Shown in pieces: positions 3,214 through 38,293 of a stretch of 64,000 bases of DNA. Numbering within the stretch: position 1 is the first letter of the stretch; each line of letters opens with the position of its first letter. The DNA comes from Liquidambar formosana (lineage: Eukaryota; Streptophyta; Magnoliopsida; Saxifragales; Altingiaceae): contig CM077827.1 in the NCBI GenBank assembly GCA_039720395.1, positions 18,463,822 through 18,527,821 of the forward strand, read 5' to 3'. Below the pieces are notes generated by a model. The model did no database searches. It was not told the origin of the DNA and worked only from the letters and a program-made list of their open reading frames with translations. A program made the position numbers and the translations under genes.

Positions 3214-3809
3214 TGTCACACCCCATTTTTGCACCACCTTACTAGGGCTCATCATTTCATGCATGTTTTTGTTTTGTTTTTGAGTCTAGTCACCTGCATT
3301 AGTTTTCTAGGAGTCACAAGGACAATGGATATGAATTTTGGTTGAAATTGGAGTTGATCTTGAGGGATAATAAGAGCTTTTGTGACTTGAGGGGCATAAT
3401 CGTCTTTTAAGTCCCAAACTTTTCATTTGACCTTGGAATGATCTCCAAATTGTCAATTGGAGTTCATATGGATGCATAAGAGGTATTTTTAGTGTCAATT
3501 TGGTAAGTCAATGGCTCGGGATTAAAATGGCTCGATGTAGTTCAAGTTGGTTAATTGACCCTTCCTTGGGTTAGCTCTAATTGACTCACAATTACCAACC
3601 AAATCTTTTCAAATTGACTTTCATTAGTCATCATTTTACCCTCAAAAGTGTTTCATGAAGTTCATCTTAAGTCCCGTGGCCCTGATGATGAGTTTAGTGT
3701 GGTTATTTACGGATTATCCTTGAAGAATTAGTGCGAATCACAGCATGAGATTTTTGGTTAAAATGAAAAGAAAATTATTTTATTAAATTAGCCATTTTTA
3801 TCATGACAC

Positions 3810-3871
3810 TAACACATGTACGTATGTGATGAGTGTGTGTACGCACATACGATACATGTGCATGCGTGTTA
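3810..3871 (+). promoter_or_regulatory. 62-bp imperfect palindrome in the U3 of element B
   Basis: Starts TAACACATG and ends CATGCGTGTTA. The inner arms CATGTACGTATGTG and CACATACGATACATG pair with a single extra base. It includes GTACGCAC, the core of the motif repeated in element E. It lies about 140 bp upstream of the TATA box. Repeated in the 3' LTR. Confidence 0.7.
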
Positions 3872-4010
3872 GCGGTCAATCTCCCAATTTTTATAAAAGA
3901 CAATTTCCTTTTCCTATTCAGATTAGAAGTCTTTTATCATTATAAAATACCTTTTGATTATTCTCCAAAAAACCTAGTCCAGGAAGGAAAGGGAAACTCC
4001 AGATTTCAGC

Positions 4011-4018
4011 TATAAATA
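4011..4018 (+). promoter_or_regulatory. TATA box of element B 5' LTR
   Basis: TATAAATA, followed by a purine-rich stretch. The copy in the 3' LTR is at 18464-18471. Equivalent boxes in related LTRs are at 29951-29958 (- strand), 44391-44398, 48616-48623 and 56630-56637. Confidence 0.75.
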
Positions 4019-5990
4019 CTCTCTTAATGTCTTTAAACAAAGGAGAAGAGAAGAGGGTTTGGGGGGAGTGAAATTCGTCATAATTCAGCAGCAGATTTTC
4101 TGAAAACCAGCAGTCGTATTTTAATCATAACGTTTTCATCCGAAGTCAGAATTTGATGAAATTGGTCTTGTTAGAAAGATAATTCAATTCTCTACAACTT
4201 TGTATTTCACAAGCTTTGTCCATACCCAAAAACGCGATTGAAGTTGCTGCTGCTGCAAAGTGACGAGAATCACTTTTTCTTTTCTCTTGTTCTCTTTTTG
4301 TTTTCTATTTCTTTTCAAAGTTGAGTGAGTTTTGATCTCTTTGCTGTGATACCACTTTGACAAAGAGGAGGATTCGTGTTGGTTTGATTCACTCTAAAGA
4401 CCTGAGGAGCCACGAACAATTACAAACACAAGGAAGGCCCTTCCTAAGGTATTCTCCTTCTCTATTCAAGCTTAAACTAGGTTTTCATATGGGTTAGGCT
4501 TATTGCATGTTAAAGGTGACTTTTTTATCATGTATTAACACTCTAGCTAGTTAATATACATGGAATATCTATTTTTTATCTACTGTTTAGCATGCTTTAG
4601 GGCTGTCCTTTAGGTTTTTAATGCATAGTTATGATTCTTGTGCTCCTGTTTGTCCTTGTGCTAGGATTAGTGTCATTGCATGTTAGAGTTAGGATTTTCA
4701 TCATGTTATATTGCTTTAGTTAGTTAATATGCATGATTTAATTTCTGTTTAGTTTGGTTTTAGCATGATTAAAGTATGTTTTGTATGTTTTTAAGCATAT
4801 TTGTGAGTTTAGGGTTTTAGAGTCATTGTTTCGTGTTTGTTTTCATATAGCATGATAAAGTAGACTTTTTTATTTGGTTTTTCTTCGTGTTTGCTGTATA
4901 TGTTTTTCATATGGAGTAAACATGATAGTTTTGCATGCATGTTAGTATGTTTTAGGGTTTTTATGCATGATATGGTTCTAGGAATATGTTAGGACTTATT
5001 ATTGTTCGCTGTTTTTGCTATTGGCATGCTTAGTGGATGATTTTAGGTCATAATACTATTCTGTCCAGATTTGCATGTTAGTGTTTTTGCATGGTTTTGA
5101 GCACTTGTAAGGGTGCAAATAGGTGTGGTATTTGTCCCATGGCAAATAGGGCTGCTTATGTCTGAAATGGCTAAATGCTTGGAGCTAATTGCGCTCAGGT
5201 AAGTGGGTGTGAAGGTGCCCCAATTCACCTTTCTTCTTAACTCATTCTCTTCTCCCTATTTAGGGTTAATTTTTAATATGATCCTATGGTTTAATTAGAG
5301 GTTTCCTTAACCAACAAAATTCTGGTTTTTATTAAAGTTTCCATTTTGTGGATTTCTTTCCTAAAATCAAACTTTCTATCATATTCAACTCTTTTGATCA
5401 AATAAGGAAACCTAGGGTTTTAACCATAGGTTTGTATTAGGATTTAACCTTAGTTCTAATCGAACTACGTGGACTTTGATCCATGTATTTCATTGCATGG
5501 TACGTAGGCGCTCTTCGTGAGGCTCAAGTCCGTTCTAGGATCCAAGCATCCTAGGTTTATTTTTGTTTTGTTTTCTTTTTCTTTATTTTCTGTTTTTTTT
5601 TGCTTATTATGCATGGATGGATGAATGAAATATATGATATGCATGCAATTCTTGTGATGATATACTTGTTGATTTTTGTATGGGAAAGATCTTAATTTAG
5701 CCCAAATGAACTGAGAGACCGAAAGGGTGACATGGGTGCCTATAGGCTTTGCCTAGAACCTTCCCATGTCATAACTTAGCCTCCGAATCCCCGATTTCTT
5801 TGGTTTTCAAAAGATTGGTTTTTGCCTTTCCTTTTTTTTATGGAGTCATTCAAATTGTTTTCCTAAAACAACCTGATTTTTAGGGTTTTCCTTGTTTCCT
5901 TTAAAAAATAAGGTCGCGACTCCTTTCCTTTTTCTTTTTCAAACCCACTTTCTTTTCAATCCCTCGTGGGCCCAATTTCCGGGGTTCACA

Positions 5991-6866
5991 GTTTGGCGAC
6001 TCCACTGGGGATTTGTGGGCTAGACTCTATAAAGTTTAAATGGGCTAGGTTAATTTCTTATGTTTAATTAAAATCAATCACATTGCATCTGCTTGATTGT
6101 GTGCTTTCATTTATTGCATTGTGTGCGCAAACTCTTGCATGTTAGGATCGATGTCCCTCGATGTATCCTTGCCAACGATCGGCCTAGTCTCAACCTTGGT
6201 TTTCCTGATTCCATGTGTTGGGGCGAAAGCTATCAACCTCTCTTGCCTAGTACCCTTGGGCTTGCCCTTGGGTATATTAAATGAGTTAATCACGTACTGC
6301 TGGACCCACGCGGCGTTCCTGATGCCACATGTGGTTAGGTATAAGGATTGCTCAAGCAAGTGAAGGACCCTAGCCTACCCTTATCATTAGTCCATATAGA
6401 CAGACTTGTAGGACACTACGGTCTCACCTTTATGCACCCACAATTGTTTGTAATGATGCTATGCCGTGTTTGTGGTGTGAGGCTTTATATCTTATGCCCT
6501 TAATATAGACCTTTAAACCCTAGCCTTCGTTAAGGCCATGGGTTAGGAGGAATAAATTAAGGAAATAGGATGTAAAGCTATGTTTGTGATGTGCTAGTCC
6601 TAGGGGATTAATTAAACCTAATTGAAGGACTCTATGCCCTATTCTTTAAAACATACCCTTAATCCATGACCCCTGTAAAGGTAATTGGATAAAAGGAATG
6701 AATTAATTGAACATGGTGTAGAGACCGAATTCATTAAGGAAAATATGGAGGTTTAGGACAGATCCTTAGGCTAAAGGTTAAAAATTTTCTATCCATAGAC
6801 GTGCTGGCTTGGATCCGCAATCCACAAGGGCGCCTAGTGAGTGTTGAGTCCACCCATCAGACAGAC
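5991..6866 (+). other. Leader of element B with PBS and conserved uORF
   Basis: PBS TGGCGACTCCACTGGGGA at 5994-6011. The conserved 23-codon uORF is at 6213-6284. The stretch from 6470 to 6700 is a diverged duplication of leader text (phrases around 'cttaat...accctt', 'ccatgaccc..gtaa'). Nothing else coding is supported before the gag ATG at 6867. Confidence 0.65.
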
Positions 6867-9800
6867 ATGGCCGACGAAAGAACTAGTGAGGGGCACTTCG
6901 ACCTTGAGGCTTGCCTGAAAGCCATCATGGCCAAGCTTGATCATACCGCCGAGACATCCGATACCGCATTGAAAATGGCTCAAGAGAACCAACAGAAGAT
7001 GGCGGATCTTGAACAAAATGGCTCTAAGGCCCATTCCTCGGGTATACCTCATGGGGCTGGCACCGAAGAGGGACCTCAATCCAATGAGAACACCAAGACA
7101 AGGGGGGAAAGTAGCTCGAAACCTAAGGTCACCGACCTAGAAGGGGAAGCCAAGGGGAAAGGTACTAGCAGTGATTCCGTGTTAGCTAGCAAGGTAGAAG
7201 CTTTGGAGAGAACCATAAAATGGATTCGCAGGGCTGATGACATGGTCGATGTGCGGACTCTATCCCTGTTTCCAACGGCTCGTATTCCACTACAATTCAA
7301 GATGCCGGAGTTAGAAAAGTTCGATGGGACGGGTTGCCCTAAGACTCATTTGAAGATGTACGTGCGAGCTATGCACCCTCGAGGGGCTACTGACGAGCTT
7401 TTAGCTCAAATGTTCCATGAAACCTTGGCCACTTCTGCTTTGAAATGGTTCTTATCCTTGGATGAGAATAGAACCCGGACTTGGGAAGACATATGCAATG
7501 AGTTTTCAGAACACTACAAGTATAACACAGAGGTGGACGTTACTCGAAGGGACCTAGAAACTACCAAGCAAGGGGCTCATGAAACTTTCTCCGCTTACAT
7601 TACAAGGTGGAGACAAAAGGCGTCGAGAATGACGGATAGGCCGAATGAGGAGGACCAAATTCAGTTAGTGGTTAAGAACCTGCTGCCCGTGTATCACAAG
7701 CACCTATTTGCCCACTATTTCCCAAATTTCAAAGCTCTCATTGGGGCTGGCACGCAGGTTGAAGATGCTATCAATGATGGGACAATCAAGACTGAGGAAG
7801 TGAGGAGTCGCAAGACAAACTTTACTGGGAAGAACAATGCCGAGGTCAACACCATAACTCAACCAATCCAACCCTTTTCTCTTAATGATGTCAACCCACC
7901 TCGCCAATTCACTGACCTATTCATGCCACTCGAAAGAGTCCTTGAAAAGCTCATAAGTCGTGACTTATTGAAGCCACTCGACCCAAGACCTCCACCAAAT
8001 CCCTTACCCAAGAGCTATAATGAGAATGAGTACTGCAAGTACCACCAATCCAAAGGCTATGCCACCAATCGCTGTATTCGCCTTCGCCACCAAGTCCAAG
8101 ACCTCATTGACAAGCAAGTCATTTCACCACCAACCCATCCAAATGTCACCCGTAATCCTCTCCCATCACACAACAACACACCCCCACCTAACACCATAAA
8201 TGCCATTGGGGTTGAATCCTCTCGCCCTCACCATCCCATAAGACAATACACTCCGCTCCCCATGACCTTAACCCGTCTCTTCACCATTTGCCGCAATAAC
8301 AGCCTTATCATGCCACTTCCACCAAAGCCAAGACCATCAACCCCTCACCAATATTGCCAATACCATCGTGCACCCGGCCATGACACCGAGGCTTGTTCTA
8401 TACTAAAGAAGATCATCCAAGACCTCATTGACCAAAAGGTTTTGTTGTTGCCAAAGAAATCTATCCAACAAGAGCTGAAAGAAAGATATGAAGCAGGGGA
8501 TCCTCAGGTTGGCCTATTAGGTGAAGCGTCGGGGAAATATGATTACTATGTGCTGTACTCAAGCCCAAGTCCGATATCAGATGAGCCGATAGTCCCTTCA
8601 GGTTGGGATGACTTGCCGACAGAGATGGAGAGCATCGACATGATAGAATGGGATGACTTGATGAATGACTCCGAGGAAGTCCATGACATATGGGCTAGCG
8701 ATGATGAGTTGGACCATATAACCAGAGGGGGTCGCCATTTCAAGCCTCCCCACCTAGAATCTGAGAATCTGTTGGAAGATTTGGAAGGACAGAGGCGTCC
8801 TAGCTTGCAAGAAGAAGAGGATGAAGTGCTTAGGCAGCTGAAGAAGACCAATGCCAACATTACTATTTGGGGCTTGCTCATGGCCTCGCATAAGCACAGA
8901 CAGACTGTGTTGAAACTGTTGAATCAGATACAAGTGCCTGTTGACACATCCCCCGAGGGATTGGTACATTTGGTGAATCCAACTCCCAAGAACTCAACCA
9001 TCGTGTTCACCAATGTAGACCTACCTAAAAGCGGGCCGAGCCATTCTCAAGCTCTCTATGTAACCGTTGACACTATGGGGAAGAGGGTTCCCACCGTTCT
9101 TATCGACAATGGGTCCGCACTGAATGTATGTCCTCTCCGAACTGCCACTGTTTTGGGTTTGGGACCCACTGATTTCACGCCATCTGGGCAGACCGTAAGA
9201 GCTTATGACAACACCCGCCGAGAAGTAATAGGGGTAGTTACTTTGCCTCTTATCATGGGACCCACTGAATTTAGGGTGGAATTCCAAGTGTTGGATGTGC
9301 TGTCATGTTTCAACTTGCTGTTGGGCCGACCTTGGATCCATCCTGCTGGGGCTGTGCCATCTTCACTCCATCAAAAGGTGAAGTTTCCTTATGAAGGAGC
9401 CATAGTAACACTTCAAGGGGACTATGAATTGAAACTCGCAGGTGTGCCTATATGTGAGATACAACCTGAATCAGCAGCGATACCGCTATCTGGGTTTGAT
9501 TATGTCCAATGCATTGAGAAAGAGCTGAATGAATCATCACGCCATTACTCTTCTATAAAGCAGTACATCCCATATACTTTTTATCCAAGTTCCGACCCAG
9601 CTGTGGCAGATAAAAGTTTTGGTGATAGATACTTCACAGAAGGGCCGAATCCTCAAAGTTTGACAAGTTGGTACCACTCTATCCAAGATCTATATAGAAG
9701 CTTGAAAGAGGAAGACTGGGCAGAGAACCTTGATGCGGGGGCTATGACTGAAATGTTCCAAGACATGATCCTCATCATGGAAGACTCGACCATTGAAGAA

Positions 9801-9920
9801 CTCCAGGGTTCATCCATTAGCCATGCTACCGTGCCATTCCTGAATTGGTACCTTGAATGTGGTGTCATTGCGGAGATCCATGAAGAAGAAGACCTTGGCC
9901 TACCTGATAGCAGCTTGTAG
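6867..9920 (+). CDS. gag-pro: gag-pro polyprotein of element B
   Basis: 1017 codons from the ATG shared with A and F; the open frame continues 22 codons upstream without an ATG. Domains in order: N-terminal helical region; Retrotrans_gag domain from about residue 138 (FKMPELEKF) to 300; two zinc-knuckle motifs near residues 390 and 497; acidic linker; retroviral-type aspartic protease with active-site LIDNGSA (Asp about residue 747). The knuckles are of CX2HX4HX4C form; the first has Tyr in place of the second His, unlike F. Compared with F it lacks about 155 residues after the protease, including a G-patch-like motif. Its stop lies inside the predicted intron 9916-10087. Confidence 0.93.
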   Translation: MADERTSEGHFDLEACLKAIMAKLDHTAETSDTALKMAQENQQKMADLEQNGSKAHSSGIPHGAGTEEGPQSNENTKTRGESSSKPKVTDLEGEAKGKGTSSDSVLASKVEALERTIKWIRRADDMVDVRTLSLFPTARIPLQFKMPELEKFDGTGCPKTHLKMYVRAMHPRGATDELLAQMFHETLATSALKWFLSLDENRTRTWEDICNEFSEHYKYNTEVDVTRRDLETTKQGAHETFSAYITRWRQKASRMTDRPNEEDQIQLVVKNLLPVYHKHLFAHYFPNFKALIGAGTQVEDAINDGTIKTEEVRSRKTNFTGKNNAEVNTITQPIQPFSLNDVNPPRQFTDLFMPLERVLEKLISRDLLKPLDPRPPPNPLPKSYNENEYCKYHQSKGYATNRCIRLRHQVQDLIDKQVISPPTHPNVTRNPLPSHNNTPPPNTINAIGVESSRPHHPIRQYTPLPMTLTRLFTICRNNSLIMPLPPKPRPSTPHQYCQYHRAPGHDTEACSILKKIIQDLIDQKVLLLPKKSIQQELKERYEAGDPQVGLLGEASGKYDYYVLYSSPSPISDEPIVPSGWDDLPTEMESIDMIEWDDLMNDSEEVHDIWASDDELDHITRGGRHFKPPHLESENLLEDLEGQRRPSLQEEEDEVLRQLKKTNANITIWGLLMASHKHRQTVLKLLNQIQVPVDTSPEGLVHLVNPTPKNSTIVFTNVDLPKSGPSHSQALYVTVDTMGKRVPTVLIDNGSALNVCPLRTATVLGLGPTDFTPSGQTVRAYDNTRREVIGVVTLPLIMGPTEFRVEFQVLDVLSCFNLLLGRPWIHPAGAVPSSLHQKVKFPYEGAIVTLQGDYELKLAGVPICEIQPESAAIPLSGFDYVQCIEKELNESSRHYSSIKQYIPYTFYPSSDPAVADKSFGDRYFTEGPNPQSLTSWYHSIQDLYRSLKEEDWAENLDAGAMTEMFQDMILIMEDSTIEELQGSSISHATVPFLNWYLECGVIAEIHEEEDLGLPDSSL

Positions 9921-10087
9921 GTGTCTTAGTTTAGTAATATTTCCCTAATTCAATAAGATGTATCTACTTTACTCACTTTGTGGAGTCATAGTATTGATAC
10001 AGATTTGTTTGTTTTCCTTCTTTCTTTTGTGTGTCATTCCCATTATTCCTAGTCAATAAAGTGTGCTTTCTTTCTCTATATATGCAG
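9916..10087 (+). other. Predicted 172-bp intron joining gag-pro to pol (element B)
   Basis: Donor AGCTT|GTAGGT overlaps the gag-pro stop; acceptor TATATGCAG|TG. Removing it deletes the TAG and leaves an open, in-phase reading frame through six codons into the pol ATG at 10107. The same donor, acceptor and phase exist in A (23393-23577) and F (63055-63232). An AATAAA-type signal lies inside (AATAAAGTGTG near 10055). Ogre elements are known to carry an intron between protease and RT. Confidence 0.75.
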
Positions 10088-10106
10088 TGTCTCTTTTCTC
10101 TCCTCT

Positions 10107-13100
10107 ATGGATATTTATGGCATGGATATAGATCCTAGGAACGATGTCCCCCCGGAGCTCGTTGAGCAAAGGAAAAGGGGCGTCACCGAACCTAATATGG
10201 ATGAATTAGAATCAATCAACTTAGGGACGAATGAATTGCCAAGAATAGTTAAAATTGGGAAAACCCTCTCCCCCGTTGAAAAAGAAAAGATGATCTCCCT
10301 CTTGAAAGCCAACATTATGGCTTTTGCATGGTCTTATGAAGACATGCCTGGCATCGACCCCGATATTGTGCAACACTATATCCCCACTAATTCCCTAAAG
10401 AAGTCGGTAAAGCAGAAACTCAGAAGATTAAAACCAGAATGGGCTCTAAAAGTAAAAGAAGAGGTAACTAAACAACTAGACGCGGGTTTCCTCCAAGTTG
10501 TGGAGTACCCCGAATGGTTGTCAAATATAGTGCCTGTGCCTAAAAAAGATGGGAAAGTAAGGATGTGTGTCGATTTCCGAGATCTCAACGCCACGAGCCC
10601 TAAGGATGACTTCCCTTTACCCCATATCGACGTGTTGGTGGATAGTACAGTGGGACATGCATTCCTCTCCTTCATGGACGGATTCTCCGGGTATAACCAG
10701 ATAAAGATGGCGCCTCAAGACATGGAGAAAACAGCCTTTATCACGCAATGGGGAACGTACTGTTACAAGGTAATGCCTTTTGGCTTAAGAAACGCTGGGG
10801 CTACTTACCAAAGAGCAGCTACAACCTTATTGCATGATATGATCCATAAGGAAGTCGAGGTTTATGTCGATGATATAATCGTAAAGTCCATGGATAGAGA
10901 AGGGCATTTCAAGGCACTAGAGAAATTCCTAGAGCGAGCAAAAAAGTACAATCTCCGTCTCAACCCACAGAAGTGCGCTTTTGGCGTCACTGCAGGCAAG
11001 CTATTGGGGTTTATGATCACTCAGAGAGGTATCGAAGTGGACCCAGGGAAGATAAAAGCTATTGTGGAGATGGAGCCGCCTAGCACTGAGAAGCAGATCC
11101 AAGGTTTTCTGGGAAGAGTTCAATACATAAGCCGATTCATTGCCAACTTAACCATGGTTTGCGAACCAATCTTCAAATTGCTTAAGAAAGGTGTGCCAAA
11201 AGTATGGAACGAAGAATGCCAAGAGGCCTTTGAGACCATTAAGAGATACTTGAGCAATCCTCCAATCTTAGTTCCCCCACGGCAAGGTGCGCCACTTTTG
11301 TTATACTTAACGGTCACCGAAACCGCGACGGGAGCTTTGTTAGCTCAATATCTCGAAGGGTCTACAAAGGAGAATGCCATCTACTACCTAAGCAAGAAAA
11401 TGACAGACTATGAAGTGAAGTACAATGCAATTGAAAAAGCTTGTGTAGCACTAGTATGGGCGACGCAGAAACTCCGGCACTACATGATGTCCTTCGAAGT
11501 GTTCTTGATAAGTCGCATGGACCCGTTGAAGTACCTGGTAGAAAGGCCAGTATTGTCATTCAAAACTGCTCGATGGTCAATTCTCCTCAACGAATTCGAC
11601 ATCAAGTACGTGAATCAGAAGTCTATCAAGGGGAGCGTCATCGCAGACTACCTAGCCAGCTGTCCTGTGTCATCATCTGCTCCATTCAACGATCAGTTCC
11701 CAGACGAGGACGTGCTAGAGATTGGCAGAAAAATTTGGAGAGTATACTTCGATGGGGCAGCCAATAAGAAAGGTTATGGGATAGGAGTCCTGCTGGTCTC
11801 ACCCGAAGAGGCATTTACACCGTTGGCGGTCAAGTTGGGGTTCAAAGCCACCAACAACATTGCTGAATATGAGGCCTGTATCCTAGCATTGGAAGCGGCA
11901 CTTGAATTGGGGATCAAAGAATTAGAAGTGTTCGGGGACTCGGCGCTAATCATCTGTCAGATAAAAGGGGAATGGAAAACTCGAGATGAGAAGCTGCTAC
12001 CCTACCATGCCTACCTGGAAGCTCTAACCAAGGAGTTCTCAGAGATAGAATTTAACTACCTTTCAAGGAACAAGAACCAGTTCGCCGATGCCTTGGCGAC
12101 CCTAGCATCCATGGTGGAGATACCTGAAGGGGGAAATGTGAAGCCGTTGGTGATAGAATGCCGAGACAAGCCTGTGTACTGTTGTGCAATCCGAGGAGGA
12201 GAGGTAAATGATGGCCGTCCGTGGTTCCATGACATAAAGAAGTTCATTGAAGAAAGGGAATACCCAGAAGGAGCATCTCGTATCGATAGAAAAACCCTAA
12301 GGCGGTTGGCAAGTCACTATGTACTTTGTGGAGGAAAGCTATATCGGAGATCATACGACAGGATCCACCTGCTGTGTGTCACCGAGGAGGAAGCCGAGCA
12401 TCTGATTAAAGAAATCCATGAAGGGACAGGGGCTCCGCATATGAATAGCTATATGTTAGCTAAGAAAATCATGAGGTTAGGCTATTATTGGTCCACCATG
12501 GAAAGAGACTGCCACGCACATGTCAAGAAGTGCCAGAAATGCCAATTGTTCGCCAGTGGACAACATTTGCCTTCTATGCCTTTAACGAGTATGTCGTCAC
12601 CTTGGCCATTCGCGGTGTGGGGGATAGATATCATCGGACAGATCAAGCCAAAGGCATCAAATGGGCATGAATACATCCTGGTTGCCATCGACTACTTCAC
12701 TAAGTGGGTGGAAGCAGCGTCCTTCAAGACCTTGAATTCCAAGAAGGTAGCACAGTTCACACAGCACAGCATCATCTATCGATATGGGGTACCGCATGAA
12801 GTTATCTCAGACAATGGCCAGCACTTTCAGAAAGAAACCCATGAGCTCTTGCAAAAGTACGGCATAGTTCACCATCTGTCATCACCATACCGTCCTCAGA
12901 CTAATGGAGCGGTGGAAGTAGCTAACAAGAACATCAAGAAGATACTACAGAAGACTGCGGACTCGCACACAGACTGGCATGAGAAGTTGCCATTGGCTTT
13001 ATGGGGTTACAGAACATCAATAAGGTCGTCAACAGGGGCTACCCCTTATTCTCTAGTTTATGGAATGGAGGCCGTGTTGCCAGTTGAATTAGAGGTTCCT

Positions 13101-13466
13101 TCACTAAGGGTTGCCGTGGAGAGCCAGATAACAGAAGTGGACTGGGTTAAGAGCCGCTATGATGAGTTAGCTTTGCTGGATGAAAGGCGTTTAAGGGCGC
13201 TGTATCATGTTCAGGGGTATCAACGGAGAGTTGCCAGAGCATTCAACAAGCATGTCAAAGATCGAGGTCTAAAGAAAGGGGATGTAGTGCTGAAAGAAAT
13301 CAGAGCTCCAGTGTTCGATCCGCGGGGAAAATTCAAGCCAAGTTGGGGTGGGCCATACATTATCAAAGAGATATTGCCAGCAGGGGCTGTTCGCCTCATG
13401 GATTTAGATGGAATTGAGTTCGCTCGTCCAACTAATTTGGATCAATTGAAGAAATATCATGTTTGA
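10107..13466 (+). CDS. pol: pol: RT, RNase H, second (archaeal-type) RNase H, integrase (element B)
   Basis: 1119 codons, open. Reverse transcriptase spans about residues 90-310, with YVDD at 253-256 as catalytic motif and MDGFSGYNQI as motif A. The first RNase H follows; the expected catalytic TDAS motif reads TVTE, so it is probably inactive. The second RNase H begins at YFDGAANKKGYG (Asp 549) and continues through AEYEACILALE, FGDSALI and FADALA, a complete set of acidic residues. Integrase has an HHCC finger (HEGTGAPH ... CQKC) and catalytic Asp 841 (GIDIIG), Asp 902 (SDNG) and Glu 937 (VEVANK). The C-terminus lacks a recognisable chromodomain. Dual RNase H is diagnostic for the Tat group. 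Confidence 0.95.
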   Translation: MDIYGMDIDPRNDVPPELVEQRKRGVTEPNMDELESINLGTNELPRIVKIGKTLSPVEKEKMISLLKANIMAFAWSYEDMPGIDPDIVQHYIPTNSLKKSVKQKLRRLKPEWALKVKEEVTKQLDAGFLQVVEYPEWLSNIVPVPKKDGKVRMCVDFRDLNATSPKDDFPLPHIDVLVDSTVGHAFLSFMDGFSGYNQIKMAPQDMEKTAFITQWGTYCYKVMPFGLRNAGATYQRAATTLLHDMIHKEVEVYVDDIIVKSMDREGHFKALEKFLERAKKYNLRLNPQKCAFGVTAGKLLGFMITQRGIEVDPGKIKAIVEMEPPSTEKQIQGFLGRVQYISRFIANLTMVCEPIFKLLKKGVPKVWNEECQEAFETIKRYLSNPPILVPPRQGAPLLLYLTVTETATGALLAQYLEGSTKENAIYYLSKKMTDYEVKYNAIEKACVALVWATQKLRHYMMSFEVFLISRMDPLKYLVERPVLSFKTARWSILLNEFDIKYVNQKSIKGSVIADYLASCPVSSSAPFNDQFPDEDVLEIGRKIWRVYFDGAANKKGYGIGVLLVSPEEAFTPLAVKLGFKATNNIAEYEACILALEAALELGIKELEVFGDSALIICQIKGEWKTRDEKLLPYHAYLEALTKEFSEIEFNYLSRNKNQFADALATLASMVEIPEGGNVKPLVIECRDKPVYCCAIRGGEVNDGRPWFHDIKKFIEEREYPEGASRIDRKTLRRLASHYVLCGGKLYRRSYDRIHLLCVTEEEAEHLIKEIHEGTGAPHMNSYMLAKKIMRLGYYWSTMERDCHAHVKKCQKCQLFASGQHLPSMPLTSMSSPWPFAVWGIDIIGQIKPKASNGHEYILVAIDYFTKWVEAASFKTLNSKKVAQFTQHSIIYRYGVPHEVISDNGQHFQKETHELLQKYGIVHHLSSPYRPQTNGAVEVANKNIKKILQKTADSHTDWHEKLPLALWGYRTSIRSSTGATPYSLVYGMEAVLPVELEVPSLRVAVESQITEVDWVKSRYDELALLDERRLRALYHVQGYQRRVARAFNKHVKDRGLKKGDVVLKEIRAPVFDPRGKFKPSWGGPYIIKEILPAGAVRLMDLDGIEFARPTNLDQLKKYHV

Positions 13467-13775
13467 AGCCTGCTAGGTTGAAAACCCGTAAGGGCGGCCT
13501 AGGCAAAAGTTAAGGCATAAGAACTACGTAAGACCTGATTCTCCATTCAAAAACAAAAAAAAAACAAAAAAAAAAAACAAAAAAAACAAAAAAAAAAAGA
13601 AGAAAAAATCATGGAGATACGTAGGCAACCCACAAAGTTACCTTGGGTGCAGTCTAAATCAAGCAACAAAATCCCAAATTTGATTTATTATTGGCAATTT
13701 ATTCAAAACTAAAATTGATTGACATAGCAATTCATTGGTATTAAGAAAAAGAACTATAAATATGCCATAAATATC
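13467..13775. other. Convergent intergenic region with A-rich tract (element B)
   Basis: Between the end of pol (+) and the end of the antisense ORF (-). An almost pure A tract with scattered C and G lies at 13549-13609; an equivalent one is at 27041-27130 in A. It is followed by ATGGAGATACGTAGGCAACCC, also kept in A near 27132. The tract is T-rich on the antisense strand, so it could serve 3'-end formation of either gene; this is inference. Confidence 0.6.
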
Positions 13776-15077
13776 CTATTCTATTGAGTCTTCTATTTTC
13801 TTGAGCCTCTTTGCAGCTCGCTCCTCAGCTTTCTTCTTCTCTCTTTCATGTCTTCTTTTCTTCCTCAAGTCATGTTCATAAGCTATTGTCACTGCTTCCA
13901 TAATATCTTCTCTGCAAGATCCAAGTTCGTTGTTCTTGATAAGTCCAAAAATCCTTTCTCTTCGAGTAGTCTCTCTCTCACCTAAATTGCTTTTCAACCA
14001 TTCCTTATACTCGGGGCTCATCATATATGGACCATCAGTATTCATAACTTGGGTTAGTATCAACTTGCTAGGCCATCGGTCCTTCGCCCAAGTCACTACA
14101 GAAAGACCCGCGGGCACCACAGGATAGTCACCTTTCAAGGAAGTGGGTATGGTTTGCATGGCGCCCATCTGACGCAGAACCCTTGAAGGCCAATAGAAGG
14201 AAGTAGACCTCAGTCCTATGAGTCTCACCATGGCGCATCCAGAAGTCCGCAGAAGCACCTGGTCACTGCAGCCCCATATGAATACAAACCACTTGACACT
14301 CCTCCAAGAAAGGGTTTGGAAGTAACCTAGCCAATCTCTCAATGAAAATTGCCCAGGTAGTTCAATGCGGCGAAGGCAATAATGCTGGGGCTTGTATGGT
14401 GTAATGGCAACTGGTGACAAGAAATTCAGTCTTTCAAGCAACCACATCTGCAGTAGAATGGGGCTACCTCCTAAAGGAACCTTTGGGTCCTCATGAGTTT
14501 TATCCAAACCATTCAGGGTTTCAGCTAGCACCATGGGAATCAAGTTATGGCCCTTGGCAAGGAGAGGAATCAAGTCACAGATTTGAATGGGAACATGTGG
14601 AGTACCAGTGGAAATAAGAAAACGACCAACGAGGCAAAAGGCAAGAGCATGCTTAATAGGAAAGGTAAAATTCAGAATACCTTTACTATCACAAGCTAAA
14701 AAAGAGGTTGCCAATTTCATCAAGTCTACCATATGGTCCTTTACAAACGTAGAGGCATATTGTGAATGAATCCCAAGTAGATTGGAGAAAGAAGTAAGAA
14801 AGCTTGGGCGAGGAGTAGGGAGAATGAAAGGACCTACCGTTGAAACTCCATACAATGCACAGAATTCCTCCATGGTTGGGCACAGTTCTTCATAGTTGAA
14901 GCGGAACACATGAACTTGAGGATCCCAAAAATATGTAGCAGCAGTCAAGAGGTTCGTTTCAAGCCTCACATGCCTCAAGGAGAGCAATGGATCCAAGCCA
15001 AAGCACTTGAACTCAGATTTTGCTTCAGCACTCATAACTCTTAAAAACCCTCCTAAAAATTTGTCTAGAGCCTCCAT
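13776..15077 (-). CDS. Antisense ORF, DUF7745/PMD-related protein (element B)
   Basis: 433 codons on the strand opposite to gag-pol, starting MEALDKFLGGFLRVMSAEAK. It looks like the antisense product known from Ogre/Tat elements (DUF7745, related to the plant mobile domain): an N-terminal 'YFWDP..FRFNYEELCPTMEEF' segment, a helical middle with LIPMVLAETLNGLDK, GGSPILLQMWLLERL and YFQTLSWRSVKWFVFIWG, and a strongly basic/acidic C-terminal helix rich in Lys, Arg and Glu from about residue 400 that could act as a nuclear signal. Function unknown. A TATA-like box (TTTTTATAGGG, - strand) is at 15126-15136, about 50 bp before the ATG. Homologues are at 27310-28258 (A) and 36296-37270 (D). Confidence 0.85.
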   Translation of the reverse strand: MEALDKFLGGFLRVMSAEAKSEFKCFGLDPLLSLRHVRLETNLLTAATYFWDPQVHVFRFNYEELCPTMEEFCALYGVSTVGPFILPTPRPSFLTSFSNLLGIHSQYASTFVKDHMVDLMKLATSFLACDSKGILNFTFPIKHALAFCLVGRFLISTGTPHVPIQICDLIPLLAKGHNLIPMVLAETLNGLDKTHEDPKVPLGGSPILLQMWLLERLNFLSPVAITPYKPQHYCLRRIELPGQFSLRDWLGYFQTLSWRSVKWFVFIWGCSDQVLLRTSGCAMVRLIGLRSTSFYWPSRVLRQMGAMQTIPTSLKGDYPVVPAGLSVVTWAKDRWPSKLILTQVMNTDGPYMMSPEYKEWLKSNLGERETTRRERIFGLIKNNELGSCREDIMEAVTIAYEHDLRKKRRHEREKKKAEERAAKRLKKIEDSIE

Positions 15078-15570
15078 AACTTCTAATGAATGAATACAAG
15101 TAGGTTTAGGAACCTCTTGGATGTGTTTTTATAGGGAAAAGGTCACAAATCCAAGTTCAAATAGGAAAAAAACCCATCAGAATAGGAAGTTTCCTATTCA
15201 AAGTGGGATTTCCGCTTCGGGCTTGGGTAACCACCCAGGCCTGGGCGGCTAGCCTCCCGAGGCCTGGTGGTCACCCAACCCACCTTGTTTTGGCTTTCTC
15301 CCTCGCTTTGTCTCACCTTGACGCGTGATCAAACCTCCTTCCAAATGAGATATTCAACACTTTTTGAGCTTAAAATCAATCAAATTCCATCTTGAAATCA
15401 ATTCCTTGAATTGATTTTATGTTCAAAAGGGTTGAATATATTTCCCCTGTGTCATGCCAACTCAAGTGACAATGTGTTAAGTCACTTTCCTCTTGCACCA
15501 TGCCTGTTCAATCTTGATAAATTGATCATATATCCTCATTTCAAATTTTGATTTTTCATCCTACTTGGTT
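15078..15570 (-). promoter_or_regulatory. Putative promoter of the antisense ORF (element B)
   Basis: Upstream flank of the antisense ORF. It holds the TATA-like box at 15126-15136 and a decayed GC-rich palindromic module at 15222-15279 (GGCGGCTAGCC core, arms TAACCACC and GGTGGTCACC). The flank next to the ORF matches D at 36150-36296, and the other flank matches D at 32500-32732. No gene is seen in this stretch. Confidence 0.6.
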
Positions 15571-17530
15571 GAATATATTCATCGCTTGAATGTGTTCTTC
15601 CATTTCAAAAGTGTATTCACCCTTTGAATATGCTTCTCAGTTTCAAATTCTTATTTTCTATCATACTTGGTTGAATATATTCATCACTTGAATATATTCT
15701 TCCATTTCAAAAGCATGTTCACCCATTGAATATGCTTCCTAGTTTCAGATCCTCATTATCACTTACTTGGTTAAATATATTCATCAATTGAATATATTTC
15801 TCCATTTCAATGGTATACTCATCACTCGAGTATACTTCTTAGATATTTCGTCACTTACTTGGTTAAGTATATCCATCGCTTGGGTATATTTCTCCATTTC
15901 AATGGTATGTTCATCACTTGAACATACTTCTCAGATCATTTGTCACTTACTTGGTTAAGTATATCCACCATTTGGGTATATTTTTTCCATTTCAATGGTA
16001 TGTTCATCACTTGAACATACTTCTCAGATCATTTGTCACTTACTTGGTTAAGTATATCCACCACTTGGGTATATTTTTTCCATTTCAATGGGATACTCAT
16101 CACTTGAGTATACTTCTCAGATATTTTGCCACTTACTTGGTTAAATATATCCATCACTTGGATATATTTCTCCATTTCAATGTTGTGTTCATCATTTGAA
16201 CATACTTCTCAGAATATTTGTCACTTACTTGGTTAAATATATTCATGACTAGAATATATTTCTCCATTTCAATGGTGTACTCATCACTTGAGTACACTTC
16301 TCAGATTATTCTCTATCTTACTTGCTTAAGTATATCCATCGCTTGGATATATTTCTCTATTTCAATGGTATGTTTATCACTTAAACATACTTGTCACTTA
16401 CTTGGTTAAGTATATCCATCACTTGGATATATTTCTCTATTTCAATGGTATGTTTATCACTCAAACATACTTGTCACTTACTTGGTTAAGTATATTCGTG
16501 ACTAGAATATATTTCTCCATTTCAATGGTGTACTCATCACTTGAGTACACTTCTCAGATTATTCTTATCTTACTTGGTTAAATATATCCGTCGTTTGGAT
16601 ATATTTCTCCATTTCAATGGTATGCTCATCACTTGAGTGTACTTCTCAGCTTACTTAGTTAAATATATCCATCACTTGGATACATTTCTCCATTTCAAAA
16701 GTGTGTTCATCACTTGAATGTACTTCTCAGTCTTTTTCAATCATTAAGTATACTCATCACTTGAGTATATTTCTTAGCATCTTTTTCATCACTTGGTTAA
16801 ATATGTTCGTGACCTGAATATATTTCTCCATTTCAAAAGTACACTCATCACTTGAATACACCTCTCAGATTATTCTTATCCTACTTGGTTAAGTATATCC
16901 ATCGCTTGGGTATATTTCTCCATTTCAATGGTATGTTCATCACTTGAACATACTTCTCAGATTATTTGTCACTTACTTGGTTAAATATATTCATCACTTG
17001 AATATATTTCTCCATTTCAATGGTATACTCATCACTTGAGTATACTTCTCAGTTCATTCTCTATCTTACTTAGTTAAATATATTCGTGACCTGAATATAT
17101 TTCTCATTTTTCAAAAGTATGTTCATCACTTGAACGTACTTCTCAGTCTTTCTCAATCATTAAGTATCCTCACCACTTGAGTATACTTCTCAGATTTCAT
17201 TCTCAGATTACTTGGTTAAATATATTCGTGACCTGAATATATTTCTCCATTTCAATGGTATACTCATCACTTGAGTATACTTCTCAGATATTTTGTCACT
17301 TACTTGGTTAAGTATATCCATCGCTTGGATATATTTCTCCATTTCAAAGGTATGTTCATCACTTGAATGTGCTTTTCAGATCTCATTCTCATCACTTGGT
17401 TAAATATATTCGTGACTAGAATATATTTCTCCGTTTCAAAAGTATGTTCATTCGTAGTGGCTTGAATATGCTTCTCTTGACAATCATCAACCCCCAGTGG
17501 TTTAAGTATACTCATGACTTGAGTACACTT
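15571..17530. repeat. Tandem array of short hairpins, ~93-bp period (element B)
   Basis: About 21 units of ~93 bp, each with two inverted repeats, giving about 40 hairpins. Nearly all have a 7-nt loop, mostly ATCACTT (variants ATCGCTT, GTGACCT, GTGACTA, ACCACTT). Arms differ between copies but stay complementary: GTATACTC/GAGTATAC at 15813-15835, GTGTACTC/GAGTACAC at 16275-16297, GTATGTTT/AAACATAC at 16368-16390, GAATATATTC/GAATATATTC at 15673-15699. ORFs drawn through the array reflect its periodicity and are not genes. 3' regions of Ogre elements are known to hold tandem repeats. Confidence 0.9.
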
Positions 17531-17666
17531 CCTTATTTCAGTCTCAGGTTTTCAACCTCCCATCATTGTTGGTATCAGTGTGTGATTTCTCCAGGCTTCT
17601 TGGCAAAAATGGGTTGTTCTTTATCATTGGTTCACAAGTGTAACTTGTTCGCCAATGAGGGGCTTC
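17531..17666 (+). promoter_or_regulatory. 3' end of internal region and polypurine tract (element B)
   Basis: Unique 3' internal sequence ending in the purine-rich AATGAGGGGCTTC at 17654-17666, directly before the 3' LTR. It would prime plus-strand synthesis. The same tract in reverse is at 30948-30960 in element D. Confidence 0.75.
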
Positions 17667-20444
17667 TGTCACACCCCATTTTTGCACCACCTTACTAGGG
17701 CTCATCATTTCATGCATGTTTTTGTTTTGTTTTTGAGTCTAGTCACTTGCATTAGTTTTCTAGAGTCACAAGGACAATGGATATGAATTTTGGTTGAAAT
17801 TGGAGTTGATCTTGAGGGATAATAAGAGCTTTTGTGACTTGAGGGGCATAATCGTCTTTTAAGTCCCAAACTTTTCATTTGACCTTGGAATGATCTCCAA
17901 ATTGTCAATTGGAGTTCATATGGATGCATAAGAGGTATTTTTAGTGTCAATTTGGTAAGTCAATGGCTCGGGATTAAAATGGCTCGATGTAGTTCAAGTT
18001 GGTTAATTGACCCTTCCTTGGGTTAGCTCTAATTGACTCACAATTACCAACCAAATCTTTTCAAATTGACTTTCATTAGTCATCATTTTACCCTCAAAAG
18101 TGTTTCATGAAGTTCATCTTAAGTCCCGTGGCCCTGATGATGAGTTTAGTGTGGTTATTTACGGATTATCCTTGAAGAATTAGTGCGAATCACAGCATGA
18201 GATTTTTGGTTAAAATGAAAAGAAAATTATTTTATTAAATTAGCCATTTTTATCATGACACTAACACATGTACGTATGTGATGAGTGTGTGTACGCACAT
18301 ACGATACATGTGCATGCGTGTTAGCGGTCAATCTCCCAATTTTTATAAAAGACAATTTCCTTTTCCTATTCAGATTAGAAGTCTTTTATCATTATAAAAT
18401 ACCTTTTGATTATTCTCCAAAAAAACCTAGTCCAGGAAGGAAAGGGAAACTCCAGATTTCAGCTATAAATACTCTCTTAATGTCTTTAAACAAAGGAGAA
18501 GAGAAGAGGGTTTGGGGGGAGTGAAATTCGTCATAATTCAGCAGCAGATTTTCTGAAAACCAGCAGTCGTATTTTAATCATAACGTTTTCATCCGAAGTC
18601 AGAATTTGATGAAATTGGTCTTGTTAGAAAGATAATTCAATTCTCTACAACTTTGTATTTCACAAGCTTTGTCCATACCCAAAAACGCGATTGAAGTTGC
18701 TGCTGCTGCAAAGTGACGAGAATCACTTTTTCTTTTCTCTTGTTCTCTTTTTGTTTTCTATTTCTTTTCAAAGTTGAGTGAGTTTTGATCTCTTTGCTGT
18801 GATACCACTTTGACAAAGAGGAGGATTCGTGTTGGTTTGATTCACTCTAAAGACCTGAGGAGCCACGAACAATTACAAACACAAGGAAGGCCCTTCCTAA
18901 GGTATTCTCCTTCTCTATTCAAGCTTAAACTAGGTTTTCATATGGGTTAGGCTTATTGCATGTTAAAGGTGACTTTTTTATCATGTATTAACACTCTAGC
19001 TAGTTAATATACATGGAATATCTATTTTTTATCTACTGTTTAGCATGCTTTAGGGCTGTCCTTTAGGTTTTTAATGCATAGTTATGATTCTTGTGCTCCT
19101 GTTTGTCCTTGTGCTAGGATTAGTGTCATTGCATGTTAGAGTTAGGATTTTCATCATGTTATATTGCTTTAGTTAGTTAATATGCATGATTTAATTTCTG
19201 TTTAGTTTGGTTTTAGCATGATTAAAGTATGTTTTGTATGTTTTTAAGCATATTTGTGAGTTTAGGGTTTTAGAGTCATTGTTTCGTGTTTGTTTTCATA
19301 TAGCATGATAAAGTAGACTTTTTTATTTGGTTTTTCTTCGTGTTTGCTGTATATGTTTTTCATATGGAGTAAACATGATAGTTTTGCATGCATGTTAGTA
19401 TGTTTTAGGGTTTTTATGCATGATATGGTTCTAGGAATATGTTAGGACTTATTATTGTTCGCTGTTTTTGCTATTGGCATGCTTAGTGGATGATTTTAGG
19501 TCATAATACTATTCTGTCCAGATTTGCATGTTAGTGTTTTTGCATGGTTTTGAGCACTTGTAAGGGTGCAAATAGGTGTGGTATTTGTCCCATGGCAAAT
19601 AGGGCTGCTTATGTCTGAAATGGCTAAATGCTTGGAGCTAATTGCGCTCAGGTAAGTGGGTGTGAAGGTGCCCCAATTCACCTTTCTTCTTAACTCATTC
19701 TCTTCTCCCTATTTAGGGTTAATTTTTAATATGATCCTATGGTTTAATTAGAGGTTTCCTTAACCAACAAAATTCTGGTTTTTATTAAAGTTTCCATTTT
19801 GTGGATTTCTTTCCTAAAATCAAACTTTCTATCATATTCAACTCTTTTGATCAAATAAGGAAACCTAGGGTTTTAACCATAGGTTTGTATTAGGATTTAA
19901 CCTTAGTTCTAATCGAACTACGTGGACTTTGATCCATGTATTTCGTTGCATGGTACGTAGGCGCTCTTCGTGAGGCTCAAGTCCGTTCTAGGATCCAAGC
20001 ATCCTAGGTTTATTTTTGTTTTGTTTTCTTTTTCTTTATTTTCTGTTTTTTTTTTGCTTATTATGCATGGATGGATGAATGAAATATATGATATGCATGC
20101 AATTCTTGTGATGATATACTTGCTGATTTTTGTATGGGAAAGATCTTAATTTAGCCCAAATGAACTGAGAGACCGAAAGGGTGACATGGGTGCCTATAGG
20201 CTTTGCCTAGAACCTTCCCATGTCATAACTTAGCCTCCGAATCCCCGATTTCTTTGGTTTTCAAAAGATTGGTTTTTGCCTTTCCTTTTTTTTATGGAGT
20301 CATTCAAATTGTTTTCCTAAAACAACCTGATTTTTAGGGTTTTCCTTGTTTCCTTTAAAAAATAAGGTGGCGACTCCTTTCCTTTTTCTTTTTCAAACCC
20401 ACTTTCTTTTCAATCCCTCGTGGGCCCAATTTCCGGGGTTCACA
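17667..20444 (+). repeat. 3' LTR of element B
   Basis: 2778 bp, TGTCACACCCC to GGGGTTCACA, then target duplication ATATG. Matches 3214-5990 apart from about four substitutions and three 1-bp indels. TATA box 18464-18471, three-way-junction-like fold 19924-19984, 44-nt hairpin 20182-20225, PBS-like TGGCGACTCC at 20368-20377. Confidence 0.95.
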
Positions 20445-23396: not shown

Positions 23397-23577
23397 GTTC
23401 CTTAGTTAGAGTCTTTCCTGCTTTCAATAAAGTGTGTTCGCCTATCCCACTTTGTGGAGTTAGGAGTCGTTTCATAGTTGTGGCAACAAATTTTGTTTCC
23501 CTTTCTGTCTTCAAGTTTGTGCTTTTTGTTAGTTCCTTTAATGAAGTGTGTTTCTTTTATGCATTGTTTGCTTGCAG
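23393..23577 (+). other. Predicted gag-pro/pol intron (element A)
   Basis: Donor AGCTT|GTAGGT, acceptor CTTGCAG|TG, 185 bp, same phase as in B and F. AATAAAGTGTG lies inside near 23426. Confidence 0.7.
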
Positions 23578-26500: not shown

Positions 26501-26957
26501 TAGAACATCCGTAAGATCGTCAACAGGGGCTACCCCCTATTCTTTGGTGTATGGGATGGAGGCTGTTTTGCCTATTGAGTTGGAAATACCGTCATTACAG
26601 GTTGCCATGGAAAGTCAGATAGCAGAAGCAGATTGGGTTAAGAATCGTTATGATGAGCTAGCATTGCTCGATGAAAGGCGATTGAGGGCCTTGTATCATG
26701 TGCAGGGATATCAGCGAAGGGTTGCAAGAGCATTCAACAAGCATGTCAAAGACCGAGGTTTGAAGACAGGGGATTTGGTGTTGAAAGAAATCAGAGCTCC
26801 AATTTTTGATCCACGAGGAAAGTTCAAACCAAGTTGGGGTGGCCCGTATGTCATTAAAGAGATATTGCCAGCAGGGGCTGTTCATCTCATGGATTTAGAT
26901 GGAATTGAGTTCGCTCGTCCTACCAATTTGGATCAATTAAAGAAGTATTATGTGTAA
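23578..26957 (+). pseudogene. pol: pol: RT-RNaseH-aRNaseH-integrase (element A), decayed
   Basis: Full-length homologue of pol in B, with ATG at 23597. RT is readable with YVDD, but carries missense changes at usually fixed sites (DFQDLN, FSRYNQ). Stops: TAA 24710, TAG 24836, TAG 25568, TAG 26033, TAG 26093 and TAG 26252, all explained by C:G to T:A transitions from CAA, CAG or TGG codons in the relatives. A 1-base insertion near 26404 shifts the frame just before the catalytic Glu of integrase. The last part, 26490-26957, is open again and keeps the integrase C-terminus. Not functional. Confidence 0.93.
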
Positions 26958-27309
26958 GGCCTGCTAGGTTGAAAACCCATAAGGGCGGCTTAGGCAAAAG
27001 TTAAGGCATTTGAATTACGAGGGCCTAATTCCCCATTCCTAAAGAAAAAAAAGAAGAAAAAAAATAAAAAAGAAAAAAAAACAAAAAGAAAAAAAAAAGA
27101 AAAAAAAGAAAAAAAAGAGAAAAGAAAAAAGGATGGGGATACGTAGGCAACCCATAAAGTTACCTTGGGTGCGGTCCAAACAACACCACAACAACAAATC
27201 TCAAAATTGAATTATTATTGGCAATTCATTTAGAACTAATTGATTGACAAAGCAATTCATTGGTGTTAGATAAAGAACTATTGACATGGATATCCTATTT
27301 CTAAAGTCT
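26958..27309. other. Convergent intergenic region with A-rich tract (element A)
   Basis: Matches 13467-13775 of B. An A-rich tract with G interruptions occupies 27041-27130. No gene seen. Confidence 0.6.
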
Positions 27310-31084: not shown

Positions 31085-32440
31085 AAGTGTACTCAAGTCA
31101 TGAGTATACTTAAACCACTGGGGGTTGATGATTGACAAGAGAAGCATATTCAAGCCACTACGAATGAACATACTTTTGAAATAGAGAAATATATTCTAGT
31201 CACGAATATATTTAACCAAGTGATTGAGAATGAAATCTGAGAAGTATACTCAAGTGATGAGTGTACTTTTGAAATGGAGAAATATATTCAGGTCACGAAT
31301 ATATTTAATCAGGTGGTTGAAAGAGACTGAGAAGTACGTTCAAGTGATGAACATACCTTTGAAATGGAGAAATATATTCTGGTCACGAATATATTTAACC
31401 AAGTAGTGAAAAGAGACTGAGAAGTATACTCAAGTGATGAGTACACTTTTGAAATGGAGACATATATTCAGTTCACGAATATATTTAACCAAGTAGGTGA
31501 CAAATATGCTCAAGTGATGAACACACCATTGAAATGGAGAAATATATCCAAGTGATGGATATATTTAACCAAGTAATTGACAAATGATCTGAGAAGTGTA
31601 CTCAAGTGATGAGTACACCATTGAAATGGAGAAATATATTCAAGTGATGAATATATTTAACCAAGTAAGTGACAAGTATGTTCAAGTGATGAACATACCA
31701 TTGAAATGGAGAAATATATCCAAGCGATGGATATATTTAACCAAGTGAGTGACAAGTATGTTCAAGTGATGAACATACCATTGAAATGGAGAAATATATC
31801 CAAGCGATGGATATATTTAACCAAGTAAGTGACAAGTATGTTCAAGTGATGAACATACCATTGAAATGGAGAAATATATCCAAGCGATGGATATATTTAA
31901 CCAAGTGAGTGACAAGTATGTTCAAGTGATGAACATACCATTGAAATGGAGAAATATATTCAAGTGATGAATATACTTAACCAAGTGATTGACAGGTATG
32001 TTCAAGTGATGAACATACCATTGAAATGGAGAAATATATTCAAGTGATGAATATACTTAACCAAGTGATTGACAGGTATGTTCAAGTGATGAACATACCA
32101 TTGAAATGGAGAAATATATTCAAGTGATGAATATACTTAACCAAGTGATTGACAATGAGGATTTGGAACTGAGAAGCATATTCAAAGGGTGAATACACTT
32201 TTGAAATGGAAGAACATATTCAAGTGATGAATATATTCAACCAAGTGGGATGAAAAATCAAAATTTGAAATGAGAAGCATATTCAAAGGGTGAATACACT
32301 TTTGAAATGGAAGAATTTATTCAAGTGATGAATATATTCGACCAAGTGGGATGAAAAATCAAGATTTGAAATGAGAAGCATATTCAAAGGGTGAATACAC
32401 TTTTGAAATGGAAGAATTTATTCAAGTGATGAATATATTC
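31085..32440. repeat. Tandem hairpin array of element D
   Basis: Counterpart of the B array in reverse, shorter, with about 30 hairpins. The loop is again almost always 7 nt, mostly AAGTGAT (complement of ATCACTT), with variants AAGCGAT and GGTCACG-like. Arms include GTATGTTC/GAACATAC (for example at 31676-31698), ATATATCC/GGATATAT, GTGTACTC/GAGTACAC and AATATATTC/GAATATATT. The unit order and copy number differ from B, so the arrays have diverged by unit gain and loss. Confidence 0.88.
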
Positions 32441-37270: not shown

Positions 37271-37594
37271 TTCTTGAAAAAGAGTTTATTCAAGAAGGAG
37301 ATAACAACAGGAAAATAGAACTCAAAGAGTTTTCTAATGAGACACAAACCAACATTGATGCAACCCCTATCCCTGTTGAGATAGAACCCGTTATTGTACC
37401 ATGATTGTACAAAGGGTTAGTGGGAGTGCGATCACATTTATGGTCCTATCAGTGAATGACGTTCTACTTATTAGGGAATAGTGTAGAGACGTTGTCAAAA
37501 GTGAAAGATTGGTTTTTCACAAAGTTTCTTCATAAAAGATTTGGAAGAAACATCCTATATTCTAGGAATAGAGGTCTATAGAGATAGATCTAAA

Positions 37595-38290: not shown

Positions 38291-38293
38291 GAT

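Follow-up and report, generated by a model that had tools for sequence, protein, structure and literature searches.

The window analysed here, a 64,000-nucleotide stretch of the Liquidambar formosana genome, contains nested LTR retrotransposons. One of them, element B, occupies positions 3214..20444 on the forward strand and is bounded by a 5-bp target duplication, ATATG, at 3209-3213 and 20445-20449. Its 5′ LTR (3214..5990) and 3′ LTR (17667..20444), both on the forward strand, are 99.75% identical, differing by four mismatches and three gaps, which indicates that B is young. Between the LTRs lie a forward gag ORF at 6801..9920 (PF03732), a forward pol ORF at 10107..13466 in which reverse transcriptase, RNase H, a second RNase-H-like domain and integrase follow in that order (PF00078, PF17917, PF13456 and PF00665), an antisense gene for a plant mobile domain (PMD) protein at 13776..15077 on the reverse strand (PF10536, E 3.5e-17), and a forward-strand array of short hairpins at 15571..17530. 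The 3′ LTR starts 136 bases past the end of this array. The sequence after the 5′ LTR, TGGCGACTCCACTGGGG, is a candidate primer site; the primer site of Ogre elements is complementary to tRNA-Arg. No tRNA genes were found in positions 14000-18000.

To judge from its coding content and its LTRs, B is a young Ogre-type LTR retrotransposon. An RNase-H-like second domain (aRH) between RNase H and integrase marks the Ogre lineage (Ty3/gypsy, Tat clade), according to the portions of PMC6317226 cited here, and in B the PF13456 match at residues 548-666 lies between the RT_RNaseH match (395-497) and the rve match (834-930), although an aRH is not exclusive to Ogre and is present in Retand too. Likewise, a PMD in an extra ORF, which those portions report for 57% of Ogre elements (PMC6317226), is present in B as the PF10536 match in the antisense ORF at 13776-15077. 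The ATATG duplication fits the Ogre lineage but is not diagnostic alone; target duplications are of 4 or 5 bp in most lineages (PMC6317226, same portions).

Two further elements of the window are of interest. Element A is related to B, with about 78% identity over 23067-28259, and element C carries, at 31085..32440 on the reverse strand, a hairpin array homologous to that of B. Beyond the C array, a second PMD reading frame at 36296-37270 has 93% identity to the first 325 residues of the B PMD, and 54343-54846 is a distant PMD-like stretch, 27% identical to the PMD next to the C array. A 2.7-kb inverted duplication (37270-39962 and 40320-43056, 92.5% identity) flanks 363 bp with a reverse-orientation match to the pol of B.

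On the reverse strand of B, a TATA-box-like sequence of the PMD gene, TATAAAAA, lies at 15126..15133, between the PMD ATG and the array, and its CCTATAAAA context recurs in two loci of family A, L071 and L076. If the PMD gene is transcribed from this box, as we infer, the array would lie outside the PMD transcript and inside the sense RNA of the element. The PMD promoter of B also contains a GC-rich palindromic module, GGTGACCACC ... GGCGGCTAGCCGCC ... GGTGGTCACCC, at 15225..15277, which lies 5′ of the TATA-like box both in PMD promoters and in the LTRs of other elements; further sites are at 30182-30211, 32757-32786, 36096-36125, 44171, 48363-48392 and 56388 and in L071 and L076. In the LTRs of C and of the copy at 47627-50341 the module is at positions 737 and 759, with a TATA at 990, and the LTRs of B lack GGCTAGCC. 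The module may couple PMD and LTR promoters.

The hairpin array and its relatives in the genome

The array of B begins with a hairpin at 15571-15597 (loop 15581-15587) and ends with one at 17504-17530. Its 42 hairpins with a 7-nt loop have arms of 8 to 10 bp and belong to two alternating types (23 of type I and 19 of type II), and they are accompanied, near the 3′ end of the array, by one forward-strand hairpin with a 14-nt loop (17442..17471). The array of C comprises 30 hairpins with a 7-nt loop and, at the matching place, one with 14 nt; in both arrays the 14-nt loop is ATTCGTAGTGGCTT. Extraction with a pairing-blind profile recovers the same hairpins, 43 in B and 31 in C. A previous reading of this stretch, made from the sequence only, had described about 40 tandem hairpins at 15571-17530, which these exact coordinates confirm; its repeating unit of about 93 bp with two inverted repeats holds as far as the two hairpin types are concerned, but the units are not only of that length, because the spacing from type II to type I varies from 42 to 64 bp in the units of B and C. 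The spacing from type I to type II is 38-39 bp in all 33 of the 33 complete units of the two arrays.

Further arrays were sought in 718 Mb of the genome (370 contigs), and 36 were taken from the best 40 of 682 and the best 40 of 1858 first-look candidates. Together with B and C, these 38 arrays yielded 771 units and 1470 complete hairpins under a profile without a pairing criterion, with 7 to 57 hairpins per fetched stretch, the smallest being truncated by the stretch edge. The loop is 7 nt long in 1434 of the 1470 complete hairpins, a count from which 72 incomplete hairpins were omitted, so that the fixed loop length, proposed from the copies in the window, extends across family members; among the 36 complete hairpins of other length, 31 are of type II with 14 nt between the arms. 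Of the 1434 hairpins whose loop has 7 nt, 1415 are Watson-Crick or G-T at 7 or more of 8 arm positions; the pair counts also omit the 36 hairpins of other length. As for the loop sequence, ATCACTT is the commonest, as had been said, but it does not make up most loops in B, where it is a plurality (20 of 42); over the 38 arrays it is found in 787 of 1434. In the type I loops of the 38 arrays, ATCACTT or ACCACTT occurs in 281 of 745, and this share of 38% would count against one loop-reading protein for all hairpins. Loop inversion was considered as the origin of the GTGAC loops and set aside; the intermediates ATGACTT and ATGACTA exist.

No Rfam family was found for the array: a search of 14000-20500 gave only two matches at E up to 1, both below the gathering score and outside the array. 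Relatives were also sought in viral contigs (by pattern, PMD and pol), in plasmids and in genome contigs, and none was confirmed.

Arm pairing and its strand signature

In the two window arrays, 520 of 576 arm pairs are Watson-Crick, against a mean of 424 and a maximum of 456 when arms are permuted, and none of 10000 permutations reaches the observed value. The permuted set was chosen by pairing (at least 7 of 8 positions Watson-Crick, G-T or A-C), a criterion that is symmetric for G-T and A-C, and it left out overlapping spacer helices (six named loop strings), candidates outside the arrays and the 14-nt-loop hairpins. Many hairpins arose by duplication of blocks that included both arms, one 9+9 haplotype being common to 11 of the 39 type I hairpins of the window, so that raw counts overstate independence, and it is the distinct-haplotype and tree-aware tests that take block duplication into account. 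The 29 distinct haplotypes retain 196 Watson-Crick pairs out of 232, against a permuted maximum of 182; for type I of C alone, with six distinct haplotypes, the observed pairing is reached by 343 of 10000 permutations. For the tree-aware null, parsimony changes were obtained for 33 units and the same changes were dealt to random arm columns, on trees made from all columns, from unpaired columns only, or without the right arms. The observed 541 Watson-Crick pairs of 594 exceed the null maxima of 498, 469 and 513, and 0 of 1000 simulations reach them on each tree. Shuffling arms between units gives far worse complementarity, and the claim that the arms change together, with which the sequence-only reading began, is upheld under the permutation and on all three trees. 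For pairs changed on both sides, the count taken alone is mixed and not significant on every tree: the observed number, seven, was reached by 15, 467 and 83 of 1000 simulations.

Paired cells amount to 98.1%, against 93.5% when shuffled (reached by 0 of 500), and sliding the register by 1 to 3 columns lowers this share to 20.7-56.2%; as a control, a register shifted by one column shows no excess of pairing over permutation (164 vs 166 and 202 vs 206). Further pair types show no excess over shuffles, 471 of 500 of which reach the observed number. The alignment of units took 30 of the 33 units, and from it alone RNAalifold found both hairpins and, at the foot of hairpin I, an additional short UGG/CCA helix. 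The fold z is -22 for the array of B and -19 for that of C, against -2.4, -2.0, +1.2 and -1.4 for four other tandem repeats of the window, which are not hairpin arrays, and +0.8 to +3.3 for coding stretches; the flank at 15080-15560 also folds (-4.4).

A G-U pair is stable in RNA, and the same site on the opposite strand reads A-C. Read on the sense strand, the imperfect pairs of the arrays are G-T in 43 cases and A-C in 5; the earlier remark had been that several imperfect pairs are G:U compatible. The observed G-T share of 0.90 was reached by 0 of 1000 simulations on each tree, the nulls giving 0.62, 0.60 and 0.63. Strand-biased mutation is not the cause, because unpaired columns have 21.5 changes of the kind leading to G-T pairs (A>G, C>T) against 28.5 others. 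Furthermore, transitions and transversions stand at 53:4 in the arms and at 50:24 in loops and spacers (Fisher p 0.0005). The energy of the 27-nt hairpin is lower in sense than in antisense in 37 of 42 hairpins of B and 28 of 30 of C; antisense array RNA also folds well, with z of -13 to -16.

It is informative to separate the changes confined to single copies from those that recur across the genome. Among haplotypes private to one array, 77 of 81 differ by one base from a shared haplotype, and the private changes from Watson-Crick pairs in the 38 arrays comprise 23 G-T, 27 A-C and 24 other. Haplotypes common to at least three arrays have 30 G-T, 9 A-C and 5 other (Fisher G-T/A-C p 0.0045), and under the stricter threshold of at least five arrays the numbers are 22, 8 and 2 (p 0.02); the 9 A-C and 5 other mismatches retained in shared haplotypes count against the explanation favoured below. 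A double change in the same pair was seen in 0 of the 81 private haplotypes. There are 11 pair positions where two Watson-Crick types occur in three or more arrays, and at 11 of 11 the types differ by transitions; given that 24 of 74 private changes are of transversion type, the chance of 0 of 11 is, by our own arithmetic, about 0.013. In our reading, private changes reflect neutral decay of copies once they had inserted, and shared changes are what the active lineage kept. As far as comparison of copies goes, these patterns show that the replicating lineage kept its stems paired as sense RNA, by way of G-U intermediates, and that the loop stayed at 7 nt.

Family A and the exchange of modules

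The profile of the B and C arrays has no match in 16 of 16 loci of family A. Downstream of the PMD start, 11 of the 16 stretches have tandem repeats of other sequence, which again form hairpins. Two hairpins are present in units of 80 bp: an a-type, whose RCCAG/CTGGY stem is extended past a 2-nt bulge by another helix, and a b-type, CATCGAA/TTCGATG. Units of about 45-53 bp contain a c-type, GAGAAAGA/TCTTTCTC. The 54 a-type copies have 488 Watson-Crick, 138 G-T, 14 A-C and 8 other pairs, a pairing reached by 1 of 5000 arm permutations. The distinct a-type haplotypes have 71 G-T and 12 A-C pairs against permuted means of 77 and 18, so that much of the a-type G-T excess reflects arm composition; the mutation control described above covers the arrays of B and C. 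For the b-type, distinct haplotypes have 12 G-T and 3 A-C, with no convincing two-sided change; the 82 c-type units have 67 and 4, their right arm being little variable because the units were picked by it. One of 55 a-type units, 1 of 64 b-type units and 7 of 89 c-type units, the last without the right-arm motif, were omitted. Fold z values for three stretches are -7.6, -8.5 and -3.7, and one stretch has a stronger fold z in antisense than in sense (-13.2 vs -7.6). By these comparisons, family A is a sister family with a second, unrelated hairpin array and a G-U excess.

In both unrelated arrays, UCAC and UGAC loops stand side by side (ATCACTT and GTGACTA in B and C; TGTCA-C and CGTGA-C in A), which could be due to chance or to a shared reader. 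Kissing of GUGA with UCAC loops is possible but was considered and set aside, as was a KH-type protein that would read UCAC.

The type of array is not tied to the antisense gene beside it. Specifically, B and C are about 80% identical in array and promoter region, and the antisense PMD gene beside the C array (33929-34537; PF10536, E 2e-25) has no BLAST similarity to the PMD of B, while the PMD proteins of A and B are 70% identical over 315 residues and their arrays are unrelated. This pattern suggests an exchange of modules, and because array and PMD gene exchange independently, the idea that the array is a binding site of the element's own PMD protein is disfavoured. A search with the PMD protein gave nine homologous proteins, which were used as queries for other families. 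A further PMD family (5780 first-look candidates) was examined at locus L081, where a tandem repeat of 161 bp contains short inverted repeats, GGCATA/TATGCC among them; with a fold z of -2.8 in sense and -4.6 in antisense, this one locus, whose LTR was not located, shows no clear structure excess, so that it neither supports nor settles generality.

Possible role of the arrays and rival explanations

On balance, we favour the explanation that the array is a structured element of the Ogre-type sense RNA, with about 40 short stem-loops just upstream of the 3′ LTR, from which a multivalent platform is inferred. The arm pairing has very probably been selected as RNA, and there is good reason to think that the selected RNA is the sense transcript: G-U leftovers, random uncompensated mutations in single copies and transition-only compensation all favour folding of the sense RNA. 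The sequence-only reading had offered a folded RNA or cruciform, or else template switching; the first of these is favoured, in the form of a sense-strand RNA, and cruciform and template switching fit the data less well (G-T 43 vs A-C 5; 11 of 11 transitions). That the hairpins are a multivalent protein platform is a more tentative suggestion. The roughly 40 hairpins would act jointly near the 3′ end of the genomic RNA and would most likely bind an RNA-binding protein, either the element's Gag or a host protein, that would read loop and shape and not stem sequence, and the platform might serve packaging, export or protection of the genomic RNA.

The main rival shares most of its predictions with this RNA-platform reading: hairpins in the template might pause reverse transcriptase, and jumps would duplicate the units that fold, so that pairing would persist through self-amplification without benefit to the element. 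Such a process likewise predicts pairing in the sense RNA, decay of dead copies and a variable array length (7 to 57 hairpins per stretch), and abnormal strand transfer was proposed earlier as the origin of Ogre 3′ repeats (PMC7004042, citing Macas 2009, in the part drawn on here). However, self-amplification alone leaves unexplained the 7-nt loop in 1434 of 1470 hairpins and the fixed I-to-II but variable II-to-I spacing, and none of the four other tandem repeats of the window is a hairpin array; we regard it as unlikely. Quasipalindrome correction by template switching is known to preserve arm complementarity while the sequence drifts. If fold-back copying of this kind used one arm as the template for rewriting its partner, whether in genomic DNA or in the course of reverse transcription, and RNA were not under selection, many perfect pairs with drifting sequence would be expected, as the 520 of 576 Watson-Crick pairs could suggest, but it would neither prefer G-U over A-C nor exclude transversions. 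The arrays lack its signature of compensated transversions and equal leftovers: G-T and A-C stand at 43:5, compensated transversions at 0 of 11 positions (chance about 0.013) where private changes include 24 of 74, and same-pair double changes at 0 of 81 private haplotypes. We consider template switching improbable, its reverse-transcription form being harder to exclude than its DNA form.

Ordinary tandem duplication, by which paired arms would be inherited as blocks and covariation would be shared ancestry, accounts for the many exact hairpin copies, including the 9+9 haplotype in 11 of 39 type I hairpins, and yet the distinct haplotypes still beat permutation (196 of 232 vs a maximum of 182), and a null that keeps both the tree and the changes never attains the observed pairing, so that this explanation is hardly credible. 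It is also worth considering that the dyads might act as DNA, the array being an enhancer of palindromic sites for a dimeric protein. Its location upstream of the TATA-like box of the antisense PMD gene would suit such a role, and antisense genes are frequent in such elements (PMC6317226 and PMC11963269, in the portions cited). DNA dyads or a cruciform have no strand preference, however, which is at odds with the excess of G-T over A-C; the arms drift in sequence, where a fixed binding protein would keep them conserved; and the same array type stands beside dissimilar PMD genes (B and C) and related PMD genes (B and A) beside unrelated arrays. We give this possibility little credence. A small-RNA precursor was considered and set aside; the stems are about 10 bp.

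Among known systems, the packaging and export stem-loops of retroviruses and retrotransposons are structured signals in genomic RNA that are recognised by protein. These signals usually consist of one or a few hairpins, whereas the array of B has about 40 tandem copies. The A-repeat of Xist is made of tandem hairpin units, each of which folds and which together form a multivalent binding platform; in contrast to B, Xist is a host RNA gene and not a mobile element, and we claim no sequence relation between the two.

Tandem repeats have been described before in the 3′ region of Ogre and Retand elements, as have antisense ORFs (PMC7004042, PMC11963269 and PMC3305785, in the parts cited here); the sequence-only reading had also called such Ogre repeats known. 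Like the array, the 3′ UTR repeats of Ogre and other Tat elements described there lie between the coding region and the 3′ LTR, vary in copy number and are family-specific in sequence (PMC7004042; PMC3305785; PMC11963269). In the same parts they are regarded as by-products or as satellite seeds, whereas here they are paired RNA stems with compensated changes; neither PMC7004042 nor PMC11963269 uses the word 'hairpin' in its main text (0 occurrences in each). A search by title or abstract, in which subscription papers were thinly covered, found no report of such hairpin arrays in Ogre elements or other retrotransposons.

Ogre elements account for a large share of some plant genomes, 45% in Lathyrus sativus (PMC7004042), and their 3′ repeats seed satellite DNA (PMC7004042; PMC3305785; PMC11963269), as stated in the parts of these papers used here. 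It is possible, though we hold this only provisionally, that some of the hypervariable 3′ tandem-repeat regions of Ogre elements are a turnover-prone RNA organ: dozens of stem-loops selected in the sense RNA, whose sequence could be replaced wholesale, as between A and B or C, with the architecture kept and the module exchanged separately from the antisense gene. Should the repeats be selected RNA hairpins, what has been treated as a by-product would become a functional part of the element, and the recurrence of repeats at the same place despite their differing sequences would be explained. Each molecule would then also provide a natural series of about 40 stem variants for the study of loop-reading RNA-binding proteins.
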